A program made the translations under genes and the position numbers. Below, one piece after another: positions 3,807 to 41,893 of a stretch of 53,425 nucleotides of DNA. Location: contig WHTT01000043.1 of NCBI GenBank assembly GCA_009377605.1, positions 1 to 53,425 on the forward strand, written 5' to 3'. The DNA comes from Luteitalea sp. (GTDB taxonomy: Bacteria; Acidobacteriota; Vicinamibacteria; Vicinamibacterales; Vicinamibacteraceae). Position 1 is the stretch's first letter, and each line of letters begins with the position of its first letter. The notes under the pieces were generated by a model. That model was not told where the DNA came from, made no database searches, and worked only from the letters and a program-made list of their open reading frames with translations.

Positions 3807-3970
3807 CGAAGGACACGAAGGGACGGGAAGGACACGAAGGTTTTCACCACGAAGGACACGAAGATCACGAAGAAAACCAATTTGAATCCTTCTTCGTGAA
3901 CTTCGTGTTCTTCGTGGTTGATTCTTCGTATCCTTCGTGGTCGTCGACTTCGTGGTCCGCCGCCTTCGTA
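3807..3970. repeat. Inverted array of 9-base CACGAAGNN repeats
   Basis: Nearly the whole ribE-ribBA spacer is built from CACGAAG and its complement. Copies start at 3814, 3833, 3848, 3857 and 3866 in one orientation and at 3892, 3901, 3910 and beyond in the other. The inner copies on each side are spaced exactly 9 bases. The segments 3847-3874 and 3890-3917 are reverse complements with two or three mismatches around an AT-rich 15-base centre, so a long hairpin or cruciform is possible. No coding potential was seen. Confidence 0.8.
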
Positions 3971-13762: not shown

Positions 13763-13939
13763 CCGGGGTGACAGGGTGATGGGGTGACAGGGGATGGGGT
13801 TGCGCGAACGTCCGTGGCGAGTGCCTGCTTGGCTCAGCTCCGCACGGGACGTCTCCCCCGGCTTGCGACCTCCAACCACCGAGTTGCCCCGTCACCTGGT
13901 CACCCGGTCACCTTGTCACCTCGTCACCCGGTTACCCCG
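13755..13939. repeat. Inverted array of 8-base TCACCNNG repeats between convergent genes
   Basis: Units at 13884-13939 are seven consecutive 8-mers of the form TCACCNNG, the first and last degenerate. The left part, 13755-13795, carries the same unit in reverse orientation (CNNGGTGA) with one 9-base slip. The two sides could pair across about 90 bases. The left part overlaps the last codons of hyuA. The array lies between the 3' ends of hyuA and the CoxG-like gene, where it could act as a two-way terminator. No gene is seen in the interval. Confidence 0.8.
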
Positions 13940-13967
13940 GTGAGCCGGCCAGCCCCACCAGGTGACG

Positions 13968-24856: not shown

Positions 24857-24934
24857 GCGCCCGACCTAAAGGTCTGGCCTACAGCAGCTATCAGCTCTCA
24901 GCCATCAAAGTAGGCCCGACCTTTAGGTCGGGCG
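24857..24934. repeat. Inverted pair of GTAG-palindrome elements
   Basis: The segments 24857-24881 and 24910-24934 are reverse complements over 25 bases with one mismatch. Each contains a near-palindrome, GCCCGACCT then AGGTCGGGC. The GTAG end of each lies towards the 28-base centre. The pair sits between the starts of the lipoprotein deacylase and the end of the quinoprotein gene. It belongs with the similar elements at 31951, 43563 and 45184. Confidence 0.75.
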
Positions 24935-29709: not shown

Positions 29710-31950
29710 ATGAGTAGACACAAGAAATGGATCGACCCGGCGAACTGGGCCAGCCTCAAGCCGTTCGGCATCGGTGAGGGAAAGCCCAACAACTACGGCG
29801 AGATCGTCAGAGCGCTTGGCGAGAACCGCGGGCAGCTTCGGTACGCCTGGCGCATCCTGCGGCACGGCACCTGTGACGGCTGTGCGCTGGGCACCAAGGG
29901 GATGCGGGATTGGACCATGCGCGAGGTCCACCTGTGCAACATCCGCCTCCGGTTGCTCCGACTCAATACGATGCCGCCGCTCGACGTTACGCGGCTGGAC
30001 GACGTCAATCTGCTGGCGGGGAAGTCCAGCGCTGAGCTCCGCGAGCTCGGCCGGCTGCCTTACCCGCTGCTCCGCCGAAGGGGTGAGCAACGGTTCGTCC
30101 GGATTTCCTGGGATGAGGCGCTCGCGCTGGCGGCCGAACGGCTGCAGGAGACGGCCCCGGCCAGGTTCGGCGCGTATCTGACGAGCCGCGGGCAGCCCAA
30201 CGAGAACTACTTCGCGGCACAAAAAGCCGTCCGCGCCCTGGGAAGCAACTCCATCGACAACGCGGCACGCGTCTGCCATTCGCCGAGCACCTTCGGCCTC
30301 AAAGGCGCGCTCGGCGTTGCCGCCACCACCTGTTCGTACTCGGACTGGATCGGGAGCGACCTGATCGTCTTCGTTGGCTCGAACGTCGCGAACAATCAGC
30401 CCGTCGCGATGAAGTATCTCTACCACGCCAAGAAGGCGGGCACGAAGGTCGTCTGCATCAACCCGTACCGGGAGCCGGGAATGGAGCGGTACTGGGTGCC
30501 GTCCAATATCGAGAGCGCCCTCTTTGGCACCAAGATCACCGATCGGTTCTTCCAGATCAACGTCGGCGGCGACATCGGCTTCTTGACCGGCGTCCTCAAG
30601 CACATGGTCGGCAACGAGTGGGTCGACCAACGCTTTATCGCGGAGCACACCGCGGGATTCACAGATGTGAGCGCCGCCCTCGACCGGCACAGTTGGGACG
30701 AGCTCGAGGCGGTCTCGGGCAGCACCGAACGAGAGATGCTCGCGCTCGCGGAGTTGCTTCGTGCGGCCGACACCGCGGTCTTCGTATGGAGCATGGGCAT
30801 CACCCAGCACGAGTTCGGCGAGGACAACGTCCGCGCCATCATCAACCTTGGCTTGACCAAGGGATTCGTAGGGCGCACCAACTGTGGCCTCATGCCGATC
30901 CGCGGGCACTCGGGCGTGCAGGGTGGCGCGGAAATGGGTGCGTATTCGACCGTGCTTCCCGGGGGCGCACCGATTACCGAGGATGGCGCCCGTCACTTCG
31001 CTGACTTGTGGGGCTTCCCTGTGTCCAGTGCCATGGGCCTCACCGCACCGGAGATGATCGACGCCGCTCACGAGGGGAAGCTCGACGTGCTCGTGAGCTC
31101 CGGCGGGAACTTTCTCGAGGTGCTGCCAGATCCTGCCTACTGCCGCGACGGGCTGGCCAGGATCCCGTTGCGTATCCATATCGACATCTGTTTGTCGAGC
31201 CAGATGCTGATCGATCCTGCCGACATCGTGCTGCTGCTGCCGGCCGAGACGCGTTACGAGATGGCGGGTGGTGTGACGGAAACATCGACCGAGCGGCGCA
31301 TCATCTTCAGCCCCGAGATTCCGGGCCCGCGGATTCCCGAAGCGTGGCCCGAGTACCGCATCTTTGGTGAGATCGCCGCGCGGGCCCAGCCGGAGCTGGC
31401 CGGCGCCGTCCGTTACGACAGCACGCGCGCCATCCGCGAAGACATCGCCAGGGCAGTGCCGTCGTACGCCGGGATCGAGAAGCTGGAGAAGTTCGGCGAC
31501 GCCTTCCAGTACGGCGGCCCGCACCTGTGCGCTGGCTGGAGGTTCCCAACCGTCGACGGCCGCGCCCATTTCTCGGTGGTGGCGCTACCAGACTGTTCTC
31601 GACCGGACGGGACGTTCGTGGTGGCCACCCGGCGAGGGAAGCAGTTCAACAGCATGGTGCAGGAACACAGGGACCCGCTCACCGGCGCTGCACGCGAAGC
31701 GGTGCTTATGAATCCGCGTGACGCCGATCGGCTCGGCCTCGCCGACGGTGATGCCGTGGTGCTGACCAGTGAAGCAGGTTCGCTGACCGGGCGTGTTGCT
31801 CGCGCGCCTGTGGCACCTGGGAATCTCCAGGTGCACTGGCCGGAGGGTGAGGTACTGATCGACCGCAGGCGTCGCTCCCCACAGGCGAAGATCCCAGACT
31901 ACAACGCGGTGGTTCGGGTCGCGGCCGCCGAGCTGTCGAGAGGAACGTAG
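29710..31950 (+). CDS. FdhF/YdeP-like molybdopterin oxidoreductase
   Basis: This 746-residue cytosolic molybdoenzyme resembles formate dehydrogenase H and YdeP. C55 and C58 (GTCDGCALG) and C76 are candidate cluster ligands, one short of the usual four. NAARVCHSPSTFGL aligns with the SeCys-His site of formate dehydrogenase H, with C189 as Mo ligand and H190 the catalytic His. C-terminal NPRDADRLGLADGDAVVL is the pterin-binding region. Its position between malate synthase and an OFA antiporter supports formate or oxalate metabolism. The ATG at 29710 was chosen; a GTG at 29677 would overlap the upstream gene. FdhD is not nearby. Confidence 0.85.
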   Translation: MSRHKKWIDPANWASLKPFGIGEGKPNNYGEIVRALGENRGQLRYAWRILRHGTCDGCALGTKGMRDWTMREVHLCNIRLRLLRLNTMPPLDVTRLDDVNLLAGKSSAELRELGRLPYPLLRRRGEQRFVRISWDEALALAAERLQETAPARFGAYLTSRGQPNENYFAAQKAVRALGSNSIDNAARVCHSPSTFGLKGALGVAATTCSYSDWIGSDLIVFVGSNVANNQPVAMKYLYHAKKAGTKVVCINPYREPGMERYWVPSNIESALFGTKITDRFFQINVGGDIGFLTGVLKHMVGNEWVDQRFIAEHTAGFTDVSAALDRHSWDELEAVSGSTEREMLALAELLRAADTAVFVWSMGITQHEFGEDNVRAIINLGLTKGFVGRTNCGLMPIRGHSGVQGGAEMGAYSTVLPGGAPITEDGARHFADLWGFPVSSAMGLTAPEMIDAAHEGKLDVLVSSGGNFLEVLPDPAYCRDGLARIPLRIHIDICLSSQMLIDPADIVLLLPAETRYEMAGGVTETSTERRIIFSPEIPGPRIPEAWPEYRIFGEIAARAQPELAGAVRYDSTRAIREDIARAVPSYAGIEKLEKFGDAFQYGGPHLCAGWRFPTVDGRAHFSVVALPDCSRPDGTFVVATRRGKQFNSMVQEHRDPLTGAAREAVLMNPRDADRLGLADGDAVVLTSEAGSLTGRVARAPVAPGNLQVHWPEGEVLIDRRRRSPQAKIPDYNAVVRVAAAELSRGT

Positions 31951-32074
31951 GCCCGACCTTTAGAGTCTGTGAGAATTCCTCGTAGCGCAGGCCTTGAGGC
32001 CTGCCCATGGCGGCGCTGGCAGGCCTCAAGGCCTGCGCTACGGCCATTATTGCTCACGCTCTTTAGGTCGGCCG
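31951..32074. mobile_element. Nested MITE-like element with 25-bp hairpin and 6-base direct repeat
   Basis: The core is a perfect 25-base inverted repeat, 31981-32005 against 32018-32042, with a 12-base loop and GTAG/CTAC ends. It is flanked by CTTTAG at 31958-31963 and again at 32061-32066. Removing one copy restores CCCGACCTTTAGGTCGG, the same kind of palindrome seen at 24910-24934. This suggests insertion of a roughly 97-base element into an older palindrome, with a 6-base target duplication. The element ends (AGTCTGTGAG, CTCACGCT) are weak inverted repeats. It encodes no protein. Confidence 0.75.
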
Positions 32075-32083
32075 GGATGCGCT

Positions 32084-33352
32084 ATGACAAATGGAAAGAC
32101 GCCAGGCCGGTGGGGAATCGCTGCGGCTGCGGTGCTCCTGCAGCTCGCCCTTGGTGCCGTGTACGCCTGGAGCACGTTCTCTCGCGCGCTCCAGAGCGAG
32201 GAGTCTCGATTCGCGCTCAGCGCGTCGCAGGCGGCGCTGCCGTTTTCGGTGACCATCGCGATGATCTTCCTCGGCACCTACATCGGCGGCCGGATCCAAG
32301 ACGTCAAGGGACCGCGCATCGTTGCGTTCGTTGGCGGCGTGGTCTACGCGGCAGGCATTCTCCTGGCTGGCCTGTCCAGCAGCGAGAGCCAGCTGTGGCT
32401 GCTGATCCTGGGCTACGGCGTGATTGCCGGTTTCGGGCTCGGCCTCGGCTACATCGTGCCGGTGGCCATGTTGCAGAAGTGGTTCCCGGACAAGCGCGGT
32501 CTCATCACCGGTATTGCGGTTGGCGGATTCGGGTTCGGCGCGGTGATCACATCCCCGATCGCCCAGGAGTTGGTCGAGGTCTATGCCGAGGTGCCGACCC
32601 GTGCGTTCCTCTGGCTCGGCTTCGCGTATCTCATCATGACATCGGTGGGCGCGGCGTTCTTCCGGAACCCGCCGGCGGGCTATCACGTGCCCGGTTGGAC
32701 GCCGCCTACCGGCGGGCGGGTGGTTCAAACGGCCCGCGAATACACGCAACGCGAAGCGCTCCGCACGCCCCAGTGGTTCATGCTCACGGCCGTTCTGACG
32801 CTCAACGTGACTGCGGGCATCGCATTGATCTCTGTTGCCAGCTCCGCAGCGACCGACATCGCCGGCTACAGCGCGGCGGGCGCGGCGACCTTTACTGGTG
32901 TCATGGGGCTGTTCAACGGTGCTGGACGTGTCTTCTGGGGATGGCTGTCGGAGCGGACCGGCCGGATGGTCGCCTTTGCGGGGATGCTGGCAGTCCAGGG
33001 GGTCTGTTTCTTGATGCTGCCGCACGCCTCCTCGGTGGTCCTCTTCGCGGTGCTCGGCGCCCTGATTTATCTGTGTTACGGCGGGGGCTTTGGTACCATG
33101 CCGGCCACTGCCGGCGACTTCTTCGGGCTCCGCAACGCCGGGGCAATCTATGGCCTGATGGTCGTCGGCTGGAGCATCGGCGGCGTTGTCGGCCCATTGC
33201 TCGTCGCTGAGCTGATCTCTGGAAAGCAGTACACGTCCGCGTTCACCACGATCGGCGTGATGGCGCTCGCGGCTGTGATGCTGCCGCTACTCACCCGTCG
33301 GCCGCGCGAGGAGCCAGACGAGCTGCCGGAAAAGAGCCTTCAACCGGAATGA
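32084..33352 (+). CDS. OFA-family MFS transporter (oxalate/formate antiporter type)
   Basis: This 422-residue membrane protein is an MFS carrier of the oxalate:formate antiporter family. It starts TNGKTPGRWGIAAAAVLLQL and shows GAVYAWSTFSRAL, YIGGRIQDVKGPR and GFGLGLGYIVPVAMLQKWFP, all typical of OFA members. Substrates in this family vary, including oxalate, formate and other small acids. The ATG at 32084 lies 18 bases after the right copy of CTTTAG, so the nested element now supplies its leader. The stop overlaps the APC permease ATG (ATGA), so the two are coupled. Context with the formate-dehydrogenase-like gene supports C1/C2 acid exchange. Confidence 0.85.
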   Translation: MTNGKTPGRWGIAAAAVLLQLALGAVYAWSTFSRALQSEESRFALSASQAALPFSVTIAMIFLGTYIGGRIQDVKGPRIVAFVGGVVYAAGILLAGLSSSESQLWLLILGYGVIAGFGLGLGYIVPVAMLQKWFPDKRGLITGIAVGGFGFGAVITSPIAQELVEVYAEVPTRAFLWLGFAYLIMTSVGAAFFRNPPAGYHVPGWTPPTGGRVVQTAREYTQREALRTPQWFMLTAVLTLNVTAGIALISVASSAATDIAGYSAAGAATFTGVMGLFNGAGRVFWGWLSERTGRMVAFAGMLAVQGVCFLMLPHASSVVLFAVLGALIYLCYGGGFGTMPATAGDFFGLRNAGAIYGLMVVGWSIGGVVGPLLVAELISGKQYTSAFTTIGVMALAAVMLPLLTRRPREEPDELPEKSLQPE

Positions 33353-36764: not shown

Positions 36765-38426
36765 ATGCAGCGACCCAGCCCGTTGATGTCGGCGGTCGGC
36801 TTGTGCGCCATGTTGGCCTGTTGGGACTATCACCGAATGTCCGCGGCTGCCGACGCCCTTCCGCAATTCCGCAACGTCGCGAAGGCCGCCGGTCTCACGG
36901 CGCGGCTCGAGAACGACGCCACCGCCGAGAAGCATCTGATCGAGACCATGACCGGCGGTGTGGCTGCCTTCGACTACGACAACGATGGTCTCGTTGATCT
37001 CTACTTCGTCAATGGCGCCGAGCAGCCGTCGCTCGAGAAGACGTCGCCAGACTTCTGGGGCCGTCTCTATCGCAATCGTGGCGGCTTGAAGTTCGAAGAC
37101 GTGACCGAGCGGGCAGGGTTGCGCGGAGCTGGTTATGGGATGGGCGTGGCTGCCGCCGACTATGACAACGACGGTGACACGGACCTCTTCGTCGCGGGCG
37201 TGAATCGCAGTGTGCTCTACCATAACGCGGGCGATGGTTCGTTCGACGACGTCACTGCCCAGGCGGGCATCGAGAACAAGGTCTGGTCCGTCGCCGCCGG
37301 CTGGTTCGACTATGACCACGACGGTCTCCTGGATCTGTTCGTCGTGAACTACGTCCAGTGGGATCCGAAGAAGGAGCGCTTTTGCGGCGATCGCGCGCGT
37401 AACCTGCGCATCTACTGCCATCCCAGGCTCTATGAGGGCTTGCCGAACACGTTGTATCGCAACATGGGCGACGGCCGCTTCGAGGACGTCTCGGATCGCA
37501 GTGGGATTGGCGGGCACGTCGGCAAAGGGATGAGCGTGGCGTTTGCCGACTACGACCAGGACGGATTCACCGACGCCTTCGTCACCAATGATGGCGTGCC
37601 GAACTTCCTCTTTCGCAACCGCCAGGACGGCACGTTCGAGGAAGTCGCGTTGTTGGCCGGAGTGGCCCTGCCAGTGCATGGCCGGCCCGTGTCGAGCATG
37701 GGTGTCGATTTCCGTGATTACGACAACGATGGCCTGCCGGATATCAGCGTGACCGCCCTGACCGGCGAGACATTTCCATTGTTTCGCAACGAGGGCAGTG
37801 GGACGTTCCAGGACGTGACGTACCCAAGTGGCATCGGGGCGGCCTCCGTGCGGCGAAGCGGCTGGGCCAACAGCTTCGTCGATCTCGACAACGACGGGTG
37901 GAAGGATCTGTTCACAGCGAACTCGCATGTCGACGACCTGGTCGACCGGTTCGAGGCGTCGGCATATCGCCAGCCCAATAGCCTGTTTCGTAACAAGCGG
38001 GGCACGTTCGAGGACGGCTCCAGTCGCGTCGGCACCTCGTTTGCCGCTGCCGCCGCTGCACATCGAGGCGCGGCGTTTGCCGACTTCAATAACGACGGCC
38101 GCATCGACGTTGCCAGCAGCGTGCTGGGCGAAGCCCCAGAGCTCTGGGAGAACCTCGGTCCTGCCGGCCACTGGCTGCGTCTCGAGCTGCAAGGGACCAA
38201 GAGCAACCGTGATGGGCTCGGCGCGCGCGTGCAGATCGGCAATCAAGTCAACATCATGACGACGGCTGTTGGCTACGCTTCGTCGAGCAAGCAAGGCGTC
38301 CACTTTGGTCTGGGGAGCACGACGACGGTAGACGAGGTGACAATTCACTGGCCAAGCGGCATCCGACAGGTGCTCAGCAACGTGAAGGCCGATCGGGTCG
38401 TTACGGTGAAAGAAGCGGCGCGGTAG
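36765..38426 (+). CDS. Exported CRTAC1-like protein with VCBS repeats and ASPIC/UnbV domain
   Basis: This 553-residue extracellular protein has an N-terminal hydrophobic leader and about seven Ca-binding-type repeats (for example DYDNDGLVDLYFVN, DYDHDGLLDLFVVN and NNDGRIDVASSV), forming a probable propeller. A C-terminal ASPIC/UnbV domain (VTIHWPSGIRQVLSNVKADR) follows. The function is unknown in bacteria. In Acidobacteria and Planctomycetes these often accompany TPR and PQQ-propeller proteins, as here. The ATG at 36765 has GGAGGG 7 bases upstream. The gene ends against the TCACCNNG array at 38431. Confidence 0.87.
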   Translation: MQRPSPLMSAVGLCAMLACWDYHRMSAAADALPQFRNVAKAAGLTARLENDATAEKHLIETMTGGVAAFDYDNDGLVDLYFVNGAEQPSLEKTSPDFWGRLYRNRGGLKFEDVTERAGLRGAGYGMGVAAADYDNDGDTDLFVAGVNRSVLYHNAGDGSFDDVTAQAGIENKVWSVAAGWFDYDHDGLLDLFVVNYVQWDPKKERFCGDRARNLRIYCHPRLYEGLPNTLYRNMGDGRFEDVSDRSGIGGHVGKGMSVAFADYDQDGFTDAFVTNDGVPNFLFRNRQDGTFEEVALLAGVALPVHGRPVSSMGVDFRDYDNDGLPDISVTALTGETFPLFRNEGSGTFQDVTYPSGIGAASVRRSGWANSFVDLDNDGWKDLFTANSHVDDLVDRFEASAYRQPNSLFRNKRGTFEDGSSRVGTSFAAAAAAHRGAAFADFNNDGRIDVASSVLGEAPELWENLGPAGHWLRLELQGTKSNRDGLGARVQIGNQVNIMTTAVGYASSSKQGVHFGLGSTTTVDEVTIHWPSGIRQVLSNVKADRVVTVKEAAR

Positions 38427-38430
38427 AGCG

Positions 38431-38494
38431 TCACCCTGTCACGCTGTCACGCTGCCACCTGGTCACCGGGTCACCGGGTCACCTCGTCACCCTC
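38431..38494. repeat. Eight-unit TCACCNNG array overlapping a gene end
   Basis: Eight consecutive 8-base units run without a break from 38431 to 38494. Their forms are TCACCCTG, TCACGCTG twice, CCACCTGG, TCACCGGG twice, TCACCTCG and TCACCCTC. The last three units encode the final residues (GDEVTR) and stop of the minus-strand PQQ-propeller gene. The array sits at the convergent ends of that gene and the CRTAC1-like gene. Confidence 0.8.
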
Positions 38495-39775
38495 GCGCCG
38501 CGAGCCGACAACCCACAGGTTCGCGTCCGTGCGGATGAAGAGTTGTCCTTGAGAGACGGCGATCGAGCTGAGGCAGTACGGCGCGCACGGATCGTCGAAC
38601 GAGTTGGAGGCAAGCACTTCGAACTTCGGCCCCGCGCGAAACACCGTCGTGACGCCCGTGCTCTCGCCGGTCGCGTAGATCTTCCCGTCCGCGAGCACCG
38701 GCGAGGCGCTGTAGAAATCGCTGGGCAGCCGTTCCGGGCCGTACACCACATCGCCGGTCTTGACGTCGAGGCAGAAGACAATGCCGGTTTCTCTCACGAG
38801 GTAGAGGTATTTGCCGTCGCTGACGGGCGACGGCACGTCGGGGCCGCGGTCGAAGGTCCAGGCCACGTGCGAGGTCGAGACGTCGCCTGCGCCGCCCGGA
38901 CGAAGCGCCACGAGCGGCTTCACGCGGCTCGGCGCGATGATGAGGCCGGCGGCAATGACCGGTGAGGAGATGATCCGATAGTTGGTCTCGTCCGTGGGAT
39001 TGAGGACATCGGCGCGCCAGACCTCCTGGCCCGTCTCCGGGTCATGGCCGGTAATCACGTTGCCACCCGTGGTGACGATCTCCGCCTTTCCGTCGTGCTG
39101 CAGCAGCGCAGGCGTCGTGTAGGAGTCGGGCGATTCAATCTGTGCATCGGTTGGCCGCTCCGTCCGCCATACGGTTCGGCCGGTCATCGTGTCGATGCGC
39201 AACAGATACGAAGGATCGTCGGTCTGCATCCCGTGCAGGACCTGCACGAAGAGGCTGTCATCGTGGAGCAGCGGAGACGAGGCGTAGCCGAACTGCAAGC
39301 CGAGCTCTCCATAGTCCTTCTGGATGTCGCGTGACCACAGCTCCTTGCCGGAGAAATCGAACGCCTTCAGCACGCCCGTGCCGGTCATCACCCACACATG
39401 CTCGCCGTCGGTCACCGGCGACGGTGATGACATGTTCTGCTTGTTCCCGATGCGGTTGCCGCCAGAGAGCGGGCGTTTCCAGACGACGTCCTGCTTGTTG
39501 CGATCGACCGCCCAGAGGTGAATCTCTCCGGTGGCCCGCTCGGTGGCGACGTTGAGAAAGACGAGATCGTCCCAGATGATGGGCGTCGAGCCGCTGAATG
39601 CGGGCAGTGGCAGCTTCCACGCGACGTTTTCCGTTGGGCTCCAGGTCGTCGGCAGGCCCGTGTCGGTGCTGACGCCGTCCAGCGACGGCCCACGCCACTG
39701 GGGCCAGTTTCCGGCGACGAGAGTTGCGCTCGCGATCGTTGCCAGGCATGCGGCGGTCAGGACGCCTCGTCTCAT
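38471..39775 (-). CDS. Exported PQQ-binding-like beta-propeller protein
   Basis: This 434-residue secreted propeller has a signal peptide ([20 protein letters not shown]) and the typical acidobacterial start [14 protein letters not shown]. Blade motifs follow: [35 protein letters not shown] and [16 protein letters not shown]. It lacks obvious catalytic or heme motifs, so it may be structural or a BamB-like assembly factor rather than a PQQ enzyme. The start at 39775 shares its first base with the stop of the DUF1080 gene (TAATG), indicating coupling. The C-terminus comes from the tandem array. Confidence 0.82.
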
Positions 39776-40530
39776 TACAGCTCCTTCACGAAAATGTTGC
39801 GAAATTGCACCAGGGCAGGAATGCCAGTGTACTCGCCATCCTTCCCCACACCGCCGTGATGCTGCAAGCCCAACGGTCCCTCCGCCGGGAGATCTGGCAG
39901 CGTGGCCTTGTCGATGATCAGCTTGCCGTTGAGCTGTACGGTGACTGTCTTGTCGACGACCGTGACCTCGAACGTGTTCCACTCGCCGATGTCGTTGTCC
40001 GCGTTCAGCGCCGGTGTGACGGCTGCCCTGAGCGCGGGAGCCGTGTCCTTGGCCGTCCGATAGCCGTACATCTCGCCAGACCCGACCGGCCAGCACCAGA
40101 TATTCAACTGCGCCTTGCCCGAGCCGCGGAGAATGAAGCCCGAGTCGGAATCGGGCGCGGTAAGCCGAATCTCCTCGCCCTTTTCGTCCTTCTTGTTGTG
40201 GCCATCGGGCATCACGATACGCATGTTCTCGCTGACATAGGGCGTGGCTTTGATCCGCCAGTCCACCTTGGCCTCGAAATTGCCGTACGACTTCACGGTC
40301 CACAGATTCTTGTCGTCTTCGGCCTCGCTGCCAGCATCGTAGTCGATGACGCCGTCGACGACTTTCCAGTGACCGTTGTCCCCTTCGGGGATTTTCCATC
40401 CCGTGAGATCCTCACCGTTGAAGATCGACACGAAGCCCGGCGGCGGCGCCGTTTGCGCGTGAGATCCGGAATCGACGAGACTCCACGCGACGATGAGCCC
40501 CAGTACCGACACGCCTGCAGTTGCTCTCAT
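39775..40530 (-). CDS. Exported 3-keto-disaccharide hydrolase-like (DUF1080) protein
   Basis: This 251-residue secreted protein carries the PF06439 domain, now linked to cleavage of 3-ketoglycosides. A signal peptide covers about residues 1-25. Domain motifs are [15 protein letters not shown] at the start, [40 protein letters not shown] and the C-terminal [19 protein letters not shown] precedes the ATG at 40530. It is the middle gene of a minus-strand set (TPR, DUF1080, PQQ propeller). The substrate is not known; a sugar role is inferred from the domain. Confidence 0.85.
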
Positions 40531-40547
40531 GGTTCCCTCCCTCGTTA

Positions 40548-40635
40548 TCACCTTGTCACCTTGTCACCTTGTCACCTTGTCACCTTGTCACCTTGTCACC
40601 CTGTCACCCTGTCACCCTGTCACCCTGTCACCCCA
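40548..40635. repeat. Uniform octamer tandem array (TCACCTTG/TCACCCTG)
   Basis: Six exact copies of TCACCTTG (40548-40595) are followed by four exact copies of TCACCCTG (40596-40627) and one degenerate unit (TCACCCCA) ending at 40635. This is the most homogeneous member of the TCACCNNG family here and suggests recent copy-number change. It fills the gap between the TPR gene end and the DUF1080 leader, so it lies in the transcribed spacer of the operon. Confidence 0.85.
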
Positions 40636-40636
40636 C

Positions 40637-41893
40637 TCACGGCGGCGTGATCGCCGGCGTCGCAGTCCCGGTGGCTACAGGCGTCGTCTGCGCGCGCTGC
40701 CTGATCGCTTGGTATTTCTCGAGCGCCGAGCGGGCCTGGTCGCGCCGGCCGGCTCGTTGATACGCCTGCGCGAGCTGATAGTACAGGCTGCCGTCCCGAT
40801 CGCTCGGCAACGCGGCCTCCAGATGCGGTATCGCAGCCGCGACTTTCCCCTGCATCATGAATGCTCGGCCGAGCGCCGCCCGCGCCTGAAGGAGCGACTC
40901 ATCAGCAGCGACGGCGCGCTCGAGAGAAGGGACCGCACGGTCTATCTGCTGCGCTTCGAGCAGGGCACTACCGTAGAGGAACAGCAGCTCTGGATCATCG
41001 GGTGCCTTGGCGAGCAGCTTTCGTGCGATTGGCAGCATCGCGTCATGGTCGTGGGCGAGATACAGGGCCGTCGCCAGCCGGCGTTCCAGCTCCTGGTCGT
41101 CAGGGGCGAGCTCGAGTGCTCGGCGGAGCTCCTCGACGGCAGCCTGCGGGCGGTTCTGGCTCTCGGCCATGTGTGCGCGTACTGCGTGAACCTCGACGGA
41201 ACGCGGCAGCTGCTCCAGAGCCGCGAAGGCTCGCGTCGCGAGTTGATTGAGCGCGCGCGTTCGCCAATACCAGTCCTCGTCCGTGTGGGCGCTCCTCGTC
41301 CGCTGAAGCGTACGCTGGAAATCCCCCTTCAAGAACGTGCACGCCGTCGTCGGTCGTGCGCAGTCGGGCGTCGTCTTGCGCGCCCGCTCGCGTGCCGCCC
41401 AGTCGGCATGGCCAGCCTTTTGGTAGATGTCGGCAATTGCTTCGTGGAGGCCGGGCTGCTCGGGCAGCGCCGCCTCCGCCTTGCGATAGAGCACGAAGGC
41501 CTCCGAGAGCTTGCCCATGGTGGCGAGCGCGTCGGCAACGATCAAGGACACGTACGGCGAGTCTGGGGCGACCTTCTGCAGCTCGCCGACGCTCCGGCGT
41601 CCCTCGCCGTCATAGCTGCGGACGAGCCCCGCCCAGGCCTGCGGCGACTCCGGTGTGACGTCGGTCAGTTGCTCGAACCAGTCGGCTGCCTCCGCGTACC
41701 GGCCCGCCGCCAGCGCCTCGTTGGCCCGTGCTGAGAGCGTTGCGCGAGATGTCTGGCTCGACTCCACGCGCGACTGGTCAGCCGGTGCCGATCTGGCCGC
41801 GAGCGCGCCGCGCGTGACTTCGGGCGGCACACCCGCAAAGCTCGTGAGGGCGCCCAGGACCGCCACGCCGTTCCAGCCTCGTTGTGCGAGCAC
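40637..41893 (-). CDS. TPR-repeat protein
   Basis: This 418-residue protein has a signal-like N-terminus followed by an array of TPR motifs from about residue 55 (LSARANEALAAGRYAEAADW, then ALATMGKLSEAFVLYRKAEA and RALELAPDDQELERRLATAL). It probably acts as an exported or periplasmic protein-binding scaffold. The start is a GTG at 41893, and no strong ribosome-binding site is visible. It is the first gene of the minus-strand TPR, DUF1080, PQQ-propeller set, which often accompanies CRTAC1-like proteins. The partner is unknown. Confidence 0.8.
   Translation of the reverse strand: MLAQRGWNGVAVLGALTSFAGVPPEVTRGALAARSAPADQSRVESSQTSRATLSARANEALAAGRYAEAADWFEQLTDVTPESPQAWAGLVRSYDGEGRRSVGELQKVAPDSPYVSLIVADALATMGKLSEAFVLYRKAEAALPEQPGLHEAIADIYQKAGHADWAARERARKTTPDCARPTTACTFLKGDFQRTLQRTRSAHTDEDWYWRTRALNQLATRAFAALEQLPRSVEVHAVRAHMAESQNRPQAAVEELRRALELAPDDQELERRLATALYLAHDHDAMLPIARKLLAKAPDDPELLFLYGSALLEAQQIDRAVPSLERAVAADESLLQARAALGRAFMMQGKVAAAIPHLEAALPSDRDGSLYYQLAQAYQRAGRRDQARSALEKYQAIRQRAQTTPVATGTATPAITPP

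Follow-up and report, generated by a model that had tools for sequence, protein, structure and literature searches.

We analysed contig C43 (the window: the whole stretch of 53,425 nt) from the 6.79-Mb draft genome, in 382 contigs, of a soil-type Acidobacteria. A long hairpin at positions 31947–32071 lies between an FdhF/YdeP-family gene and a transporter gene (32084–33352, forward strand). The upstream gene takes its stop codon from the outermost repeat of the hairpin (TAG, 31948–31950), and the hairpin stops 12 bases upstream of the next gene's ATG. The downstream gene matched the L-lactate MFS transporter profile NF049980 (NCBIfam) with 401.7 bits (cut-off 320) and TIGR00890 (OFA) with 211 bits (cut-off 375); on these profile scores it would be better named an L-lactate MFS transporter than an OFA transporter, as the preliminary description had called it. 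In the same-genus genome G001 (L153), the gene that comes after this upstream gene encodes an L-lactate permease. Scans found no sigma-70-like promoter or terminator, and the insert can be called a leader of the transporter gene by its position only. On the window strand the whole 124 nt folds with −86.5 kcal/mol (z = −11.0; none of 200 shuffles was equally stable). An RNA reading of the hairpin was dropped, all Rfam matches being long-hairpin lookalikes below the gathering score.

The hairpin is composite. Its outer layer is a GTAG-type REP that begins at 31947, 4 bases before the start given in the preliminary description (31951), with GTAG at 31947–31950; its left half (31947–31962, forward strand) consists of GTAG, the stem GCCCGACC and the loop TTTA. 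After this tetraloop (31959–31962) the REP is broken by an insert of 99 bp (31963–32061), followed by a second TTTA (32062–32065) and the right half-stem GGTCGG (32066–32071), all read on the forward strand. Removing 31963–32065 and joining the flanks gave GTAGGCCCGACCTTTAGGTCGG, identical over 22 bases to the sequence at 24910–24931. The earlier proposal that an element had entered an older palindrome was thus supported, and intact copies of that palindrome exist: uninterrupted REPs of the outer family at 24858–24934 (24861–24882 on the reverse strand, 24910–24931 on the forward strand), identified from the sequence and a copy search, represent paralogous empty sites, and the genome contains 21 exact copies of the intact 22-mer and 66 when up to three mismatches are allowed (reversed control, 0).

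The string CTTTAG does stand at both boundaries, as had been noted, the left copy ending at 31963 and the right copy starting at 32061. However, the outermost bases of the insert are GAG...CTC, and the flanking G and C of CTTTAG belong to the insert; since copies elsewhere start with GAG and end with CTC whatever base adjoins, only TTTA is duplicated, not the six bases proposed. The ends of the insert, GAGTCTGTGAG... and ...GCTCACGCTC, were set from the terminal inverted repeat consensus of copies across the order. Its left terminal region (31963–31981, forward strand, GAGTCTGTGAGAATTCCTC) recurs with 0–2 mismatches at C45, C7 and C55, and its right terminal region (32042–32061, forward strand, GGCCATTATTGCTCACGCTC) at C89, C41, C55 and C88. 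In the window copy the terminal inverted repeats are imperfect relative to the consensus GAGCSTGTGAAGAAAT, and because its ends are diverged this copy is probably old.

The middle of the insert (31982–32041) is a REPIN, made of two GTAG-headed REPs of the type GTAGCGCAGGCCTTGAGGCCTGC in inverted order, REP 1 at 31982–32004 on the forward strand and REP 2 at 32019–32041 on the reverse strand (inverted repeat I7, 25 nt, 100% complementary), with a 14-base spacer (32005–32018) between them. The REPIN is dispersed over 40 sites in its own genome. A Y1_Tnp gene at C22:23312 (L194) has inner-family REPs, inverted relative to each other, on both sides and is the cognate RAYT of the inner REPIN. By script (at least one end, up to seven mismatches), 9 of the 40 REPIN sites carried shell ends (C43, C55, C89, C45, two in C41, C88, C7 and C73), with a tenth, L201, at the seven-mismatch limit, and 30 had none. 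By eye, L003 has a right shell end with a length change, and at C10:57859 a left shell end is joined to a broken REP. Left junctions between shell and REPIN read CCTC-GTAG and right ones CTAC-GGC, and both are conserved. A search for the unit elsewhere, suggested in the preliminary description, returned a second full-length copy at C55, besides further copies in this genome and in the order. With both flanks present, the C55 copy lies within the loop of an inner-family rather than an outer-family REP and has TTTA on both sides; by eye, copies in this genome with one flank also adjoin REP-like half stems.

The shell also occurs in other genomes of the order Vicinamibacterales. The exact 16-base end GAGCSTGTGAAGAAAT had 69 matches in 13 of 162 genomes of the order (control, 0). 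Combining these matches with a collection scan, we obtained 46 distinct two-ended elements of 51–149 bp with ends GAGCSTGTGAAGAAAT, from nine genomes of the order (G016, G022, G076, G077, G078, G080, G081, G082 and G129) and one other Acidobacteria MAG (L079); in G005, G011, G023 and G030 the end matches were unpaired. The statistics below use 47 copies, that is, the 46 elements minus L103, whose flank is N, plus two copies from the window's genome with both flanks. By script, 32 of the 47 carried CGCAG-type repeats, 10 a REPIN and 5 another cargo, although two G016 elements scripted as CGCAG-type in fact contain repeats of the GACTCAAG type, and L126, one of the five with another cargo, is a pair of fused REPs. 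The REPIN cargo varies by genome and matches the local REP types. The CGCAG-type unit is also frequent in G081 without a shell (for example, L128:5213-5290), and in G080 the copies of 51 and 59 bp resemble, by eye, deletion forms of a REPIN carrier. Terminal inverted repeats, target duplication, short length, many copies and no transposase gene are hallmarks of a MITE, and all were found here.

These observations bear on the identity of the moving unit, for which the preliminary description had named the GTAG hairpin, leaving a 6-base duplication. In terms of the parts defined above, this would be the REPIN moved by its RAYT. The inner unit is indeed a true REPIN, and its RAYT, flanked by its REPs, is present in the genome. 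Nevertheless, the inverted terminal repeats lie outside the REPIN and in other genomes enclose quite different palindromes, and most REPIN sites in this genome lack both the shell and flanking REP halves. Y1 transposases (of the IS200/IS605 kind) are not known to leave duplications, which also counts against this route. Among the 47 copies, none showed 5 or 6 duplicated bp where the element meets its flanks, and 23 had an exact 4-bp duplication, compared with a mean of 9.1 and a maximum of 17 when right flanks were shuffled within genomes (5,000 shuffles). We therefore regard movement of the REPIN by its RAYT as very improbable at this locus: that a mobile unit was inserted here and duplicated its target held up, but the length of the duplication and the identity of the unit did not. 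The duplicated words were mostly TTTA, TTCA and TGAA; among the 24 copies without an exact 4-bp duplication, 9 had one of 3 bp, mostly TCA or TGA. The copies L079, L134 and L145 had unlike halves (for example, TTTA/TTCA or TTTA/TAAA), whose ends perhaps come from two REPs via recombination between inserted copies.

That all 124 nt fold as a single stem, and that REP halves stand next to most copies, would also be expected if the outer REP halves were part of the mobile unit and one long hairpin were copied whole, with no insertion. This account is likewise very improbable, because the outer stem varies (at least two REP families in this genome and others elsewhere) around constant ends, the loop sequence changes with the REP, and the outer REP stands alone in many copies.

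Insertions fell into the loops of short stems far more often than random sites did. Stems of at least 4 bp surrounded the insertion loop in 15 of 47 copies and stems of at least 3 bp in 21 of 47, compared with 0.7% and 2.2%, respectively, of 39,883 random sites. Among the 23 copies with a 4-bp duplication, 16 were in stems of at least 3 bp, mostly those of a local REP, and 7 were below 3 bp. Shuffling right flanks within genomes lowered the count of stems of at least 4 bp only modestly (15 observed; shuffled mean 9.9, maximum 18), because the target sites share one REP family; the stem test therefore shows REP targeting, not site-by-site pairing.

Sequence preference without regard to shape could produce a similar pattern. 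If all that mattered were a short C-TN(N)A-G core lying between genes, REPs would be targets simply through their intergenic position and their many such cores, and hairpin shape would be irrelevant. In keeping with this, most of the nine copies with 3-bp duplications occupy a CTCAG or CTGAG within repeats of the TCAGCTC type, which do not form clear hairpins. When cores were held equal, however, C-TNNA-G was in a stem of at least 3 bp at 14 of 18 targets and at 6 of 37 non-targets outside long open reading frames (Fisher P = 1.5e-5), a non-coding background that, at just 37 sites, is small; inside long open reading frames the figure for non-targets was 65 of 726. Two target sites with other cores, CCTCAG and CGTAAG, were nonetheless in stems of 7 and 4 bp. 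The elements thus preferred C-TNNA-G loops in short stems, and a core preference on its own is a possible but rather unlikely explanation.

Taken together, the data argue for a MITE family with REP loops as its targets and a REPIN as its cargo, and for the locus at 31947–32071 as a nested mobile element (probability roughly 0.8). An outer GTAG-type REP would first have lain between the FdhF/YdeP-family gene and the lactate-type transporter gene. The 4-base loop of this REP would then have received a non-autonomous element, bounded by terminal inverted repeats of the consensus GAGCSTGTGAAGAAAT, which duplicated TTTA and brought with it, between its ends, an entire REPIN of the second REP family in the genome. 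Movement was probably in trans, by the DDE transposase of an insertion sequence (IS) with the same ends, and it is that enzyme which would recognise REP loops. Five copies in G022 at different sites have identical junctions between shell and REPIN, which indicates that shell and REPIN multiplied together there; likewise, because junctions are common to copies at different sites, the REPIN may have been captured once and then amplified with the shell as one unit. More speculatively, the transposase might recognise the folded hairpin itself, as an extruded cruciform or a single-stranded stem-loop during replication, and cut its loop, so that palindromes in general serve as landing sites: the MITE would enter REP loops, and REPINs and CGCAG-type repeats would enter the MITE centre. 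We consider this doubtful. If it were true, nesting would be a general way for hairpin repeats in bacteria to form larger hairpins and to travel on each other's transposases.

The parent IS of the MITE family has probably disappeared by now or resides in genomes other than those searched. Duplications of 3–4 bp of the form TN(N)A would be compatible with IS5-type elements, and no IS5-type transposase sharing the shell ends was found: the ends were at none of the 30 DDE_Tnp_1 places examined (of 41 found) and at neither of 2 DUF4096 places. Unpaired exact ends in G005, G011, G023, G030 and G022 adjoined ordinary genes, with no transposase among the long open reading frames inspected. None of twelve viral-contig matches was paired with a second end, and nine of the twelve had common surrounding sequence. 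A phylum sample of 396 genomes contained no match to TNNA plus the 16-base end, which is weak evidence of absence because the sample left out G078, G080 and G082 and the pattern misses the G022 copies.

Empty sites in relatives, the other check suggested in the preliminary description, were represented by the paralogous intact REPs only, as no orthologous one was available: seven genomes of the family showed just partial similarity to the upstream gene, and the L128 copies of G080 had no matching flank in G081. The sequence at L131 (2620–2800) and L181 (2706–2877) turned out to be another palindromic repeat, CCCGTGGTGAAA...TTTCACCACGGG, common to G080 and G081. At one intergenic place in two genera, L138 (2326–2444, G080) and L147 (2318–2436, G082), each genome has a MITE; the two elements differ in REP halves and duplications, and common and separate insertion are both compatible with this.

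Bacterial MITEs such as NEMIS, RUP, ERIC, MITEPsy1 and MITEAba12 are likewise short, non-coding and present in many copies, with terminal inverted repeats and target duplication. The element described here differs in that it inserts into REP loops and has local REPINs or other palindromic repeats as cargo, and its parent IS was not found in the searches above. Several ISs insert into REPs (IS1397, ISKpn1, IS621, ISPsy8, ISPa11, ISPpu9/10 and ISRm22; Tobes and Pareja 2006, PMC1525189); those are autonomous, whereas the present element is non-autonomous and duplicates the REP loop. The inner cargo, a REPIN with a REP-flanked RAYT, resembles the REPIN/RAYT systems of Bertels and Rainey (2011, PMC3116915), but here the REPIN is enclosed in a shell that would move by another route. 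Section 7 of Di Nocera et al. (2013, PMC3733652) describes GTAG-15 dimers in A. variabilis that lie within long palindromes and GTAG-23 elements in T. roseum that lie within small ones: GTAG REPs are regularly nested in palindromic sequence there, as here. In contrast to our element, which has a shell with terminal inverted repeats and a 4-bp duplication inside another REP, target duplication is not reported in that section, and the paper did not take the nesting further. The component parts are thus of known kinds. In the open-access literature searched, including PMC3733652, PMC1525189, PMC3189936 and PMC3116915, we found no description of a MITE that targets REP loops, nor, save for the brief notes on REP dimers in PMC3733652, of such nesting and order-wide loop targeting.

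Little is known about the destinations of REPs and REPINs or about their transfer from one genome to another. Having ends and a target duplication of its own, a shell of this kind would be a second route of REPIN movement, and one with datable insertion events. REPs may also be safe landing sites for non-autonomous elements and not just for full ISs, and a MITE that lands in REP loops makes recognition of hairpin shape testable.

The window contains other repeats. At the contig start (39–154), a perfect 30-bp inverted repeat, GGGACAGCCCCCGTTTTACGG..., has a 56-nt gap. An imperfect CACGAAG-type hairpin at 3833–3954, with 32-nt arms that are 78% complementary, resembles the CGCAG-type cargo in style. 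Intergenic-looking DNA also contains three tandem arrays (13861–13953, 38408–38508 and 40525–40649) whose 8-base unit is of the GTCACC type.
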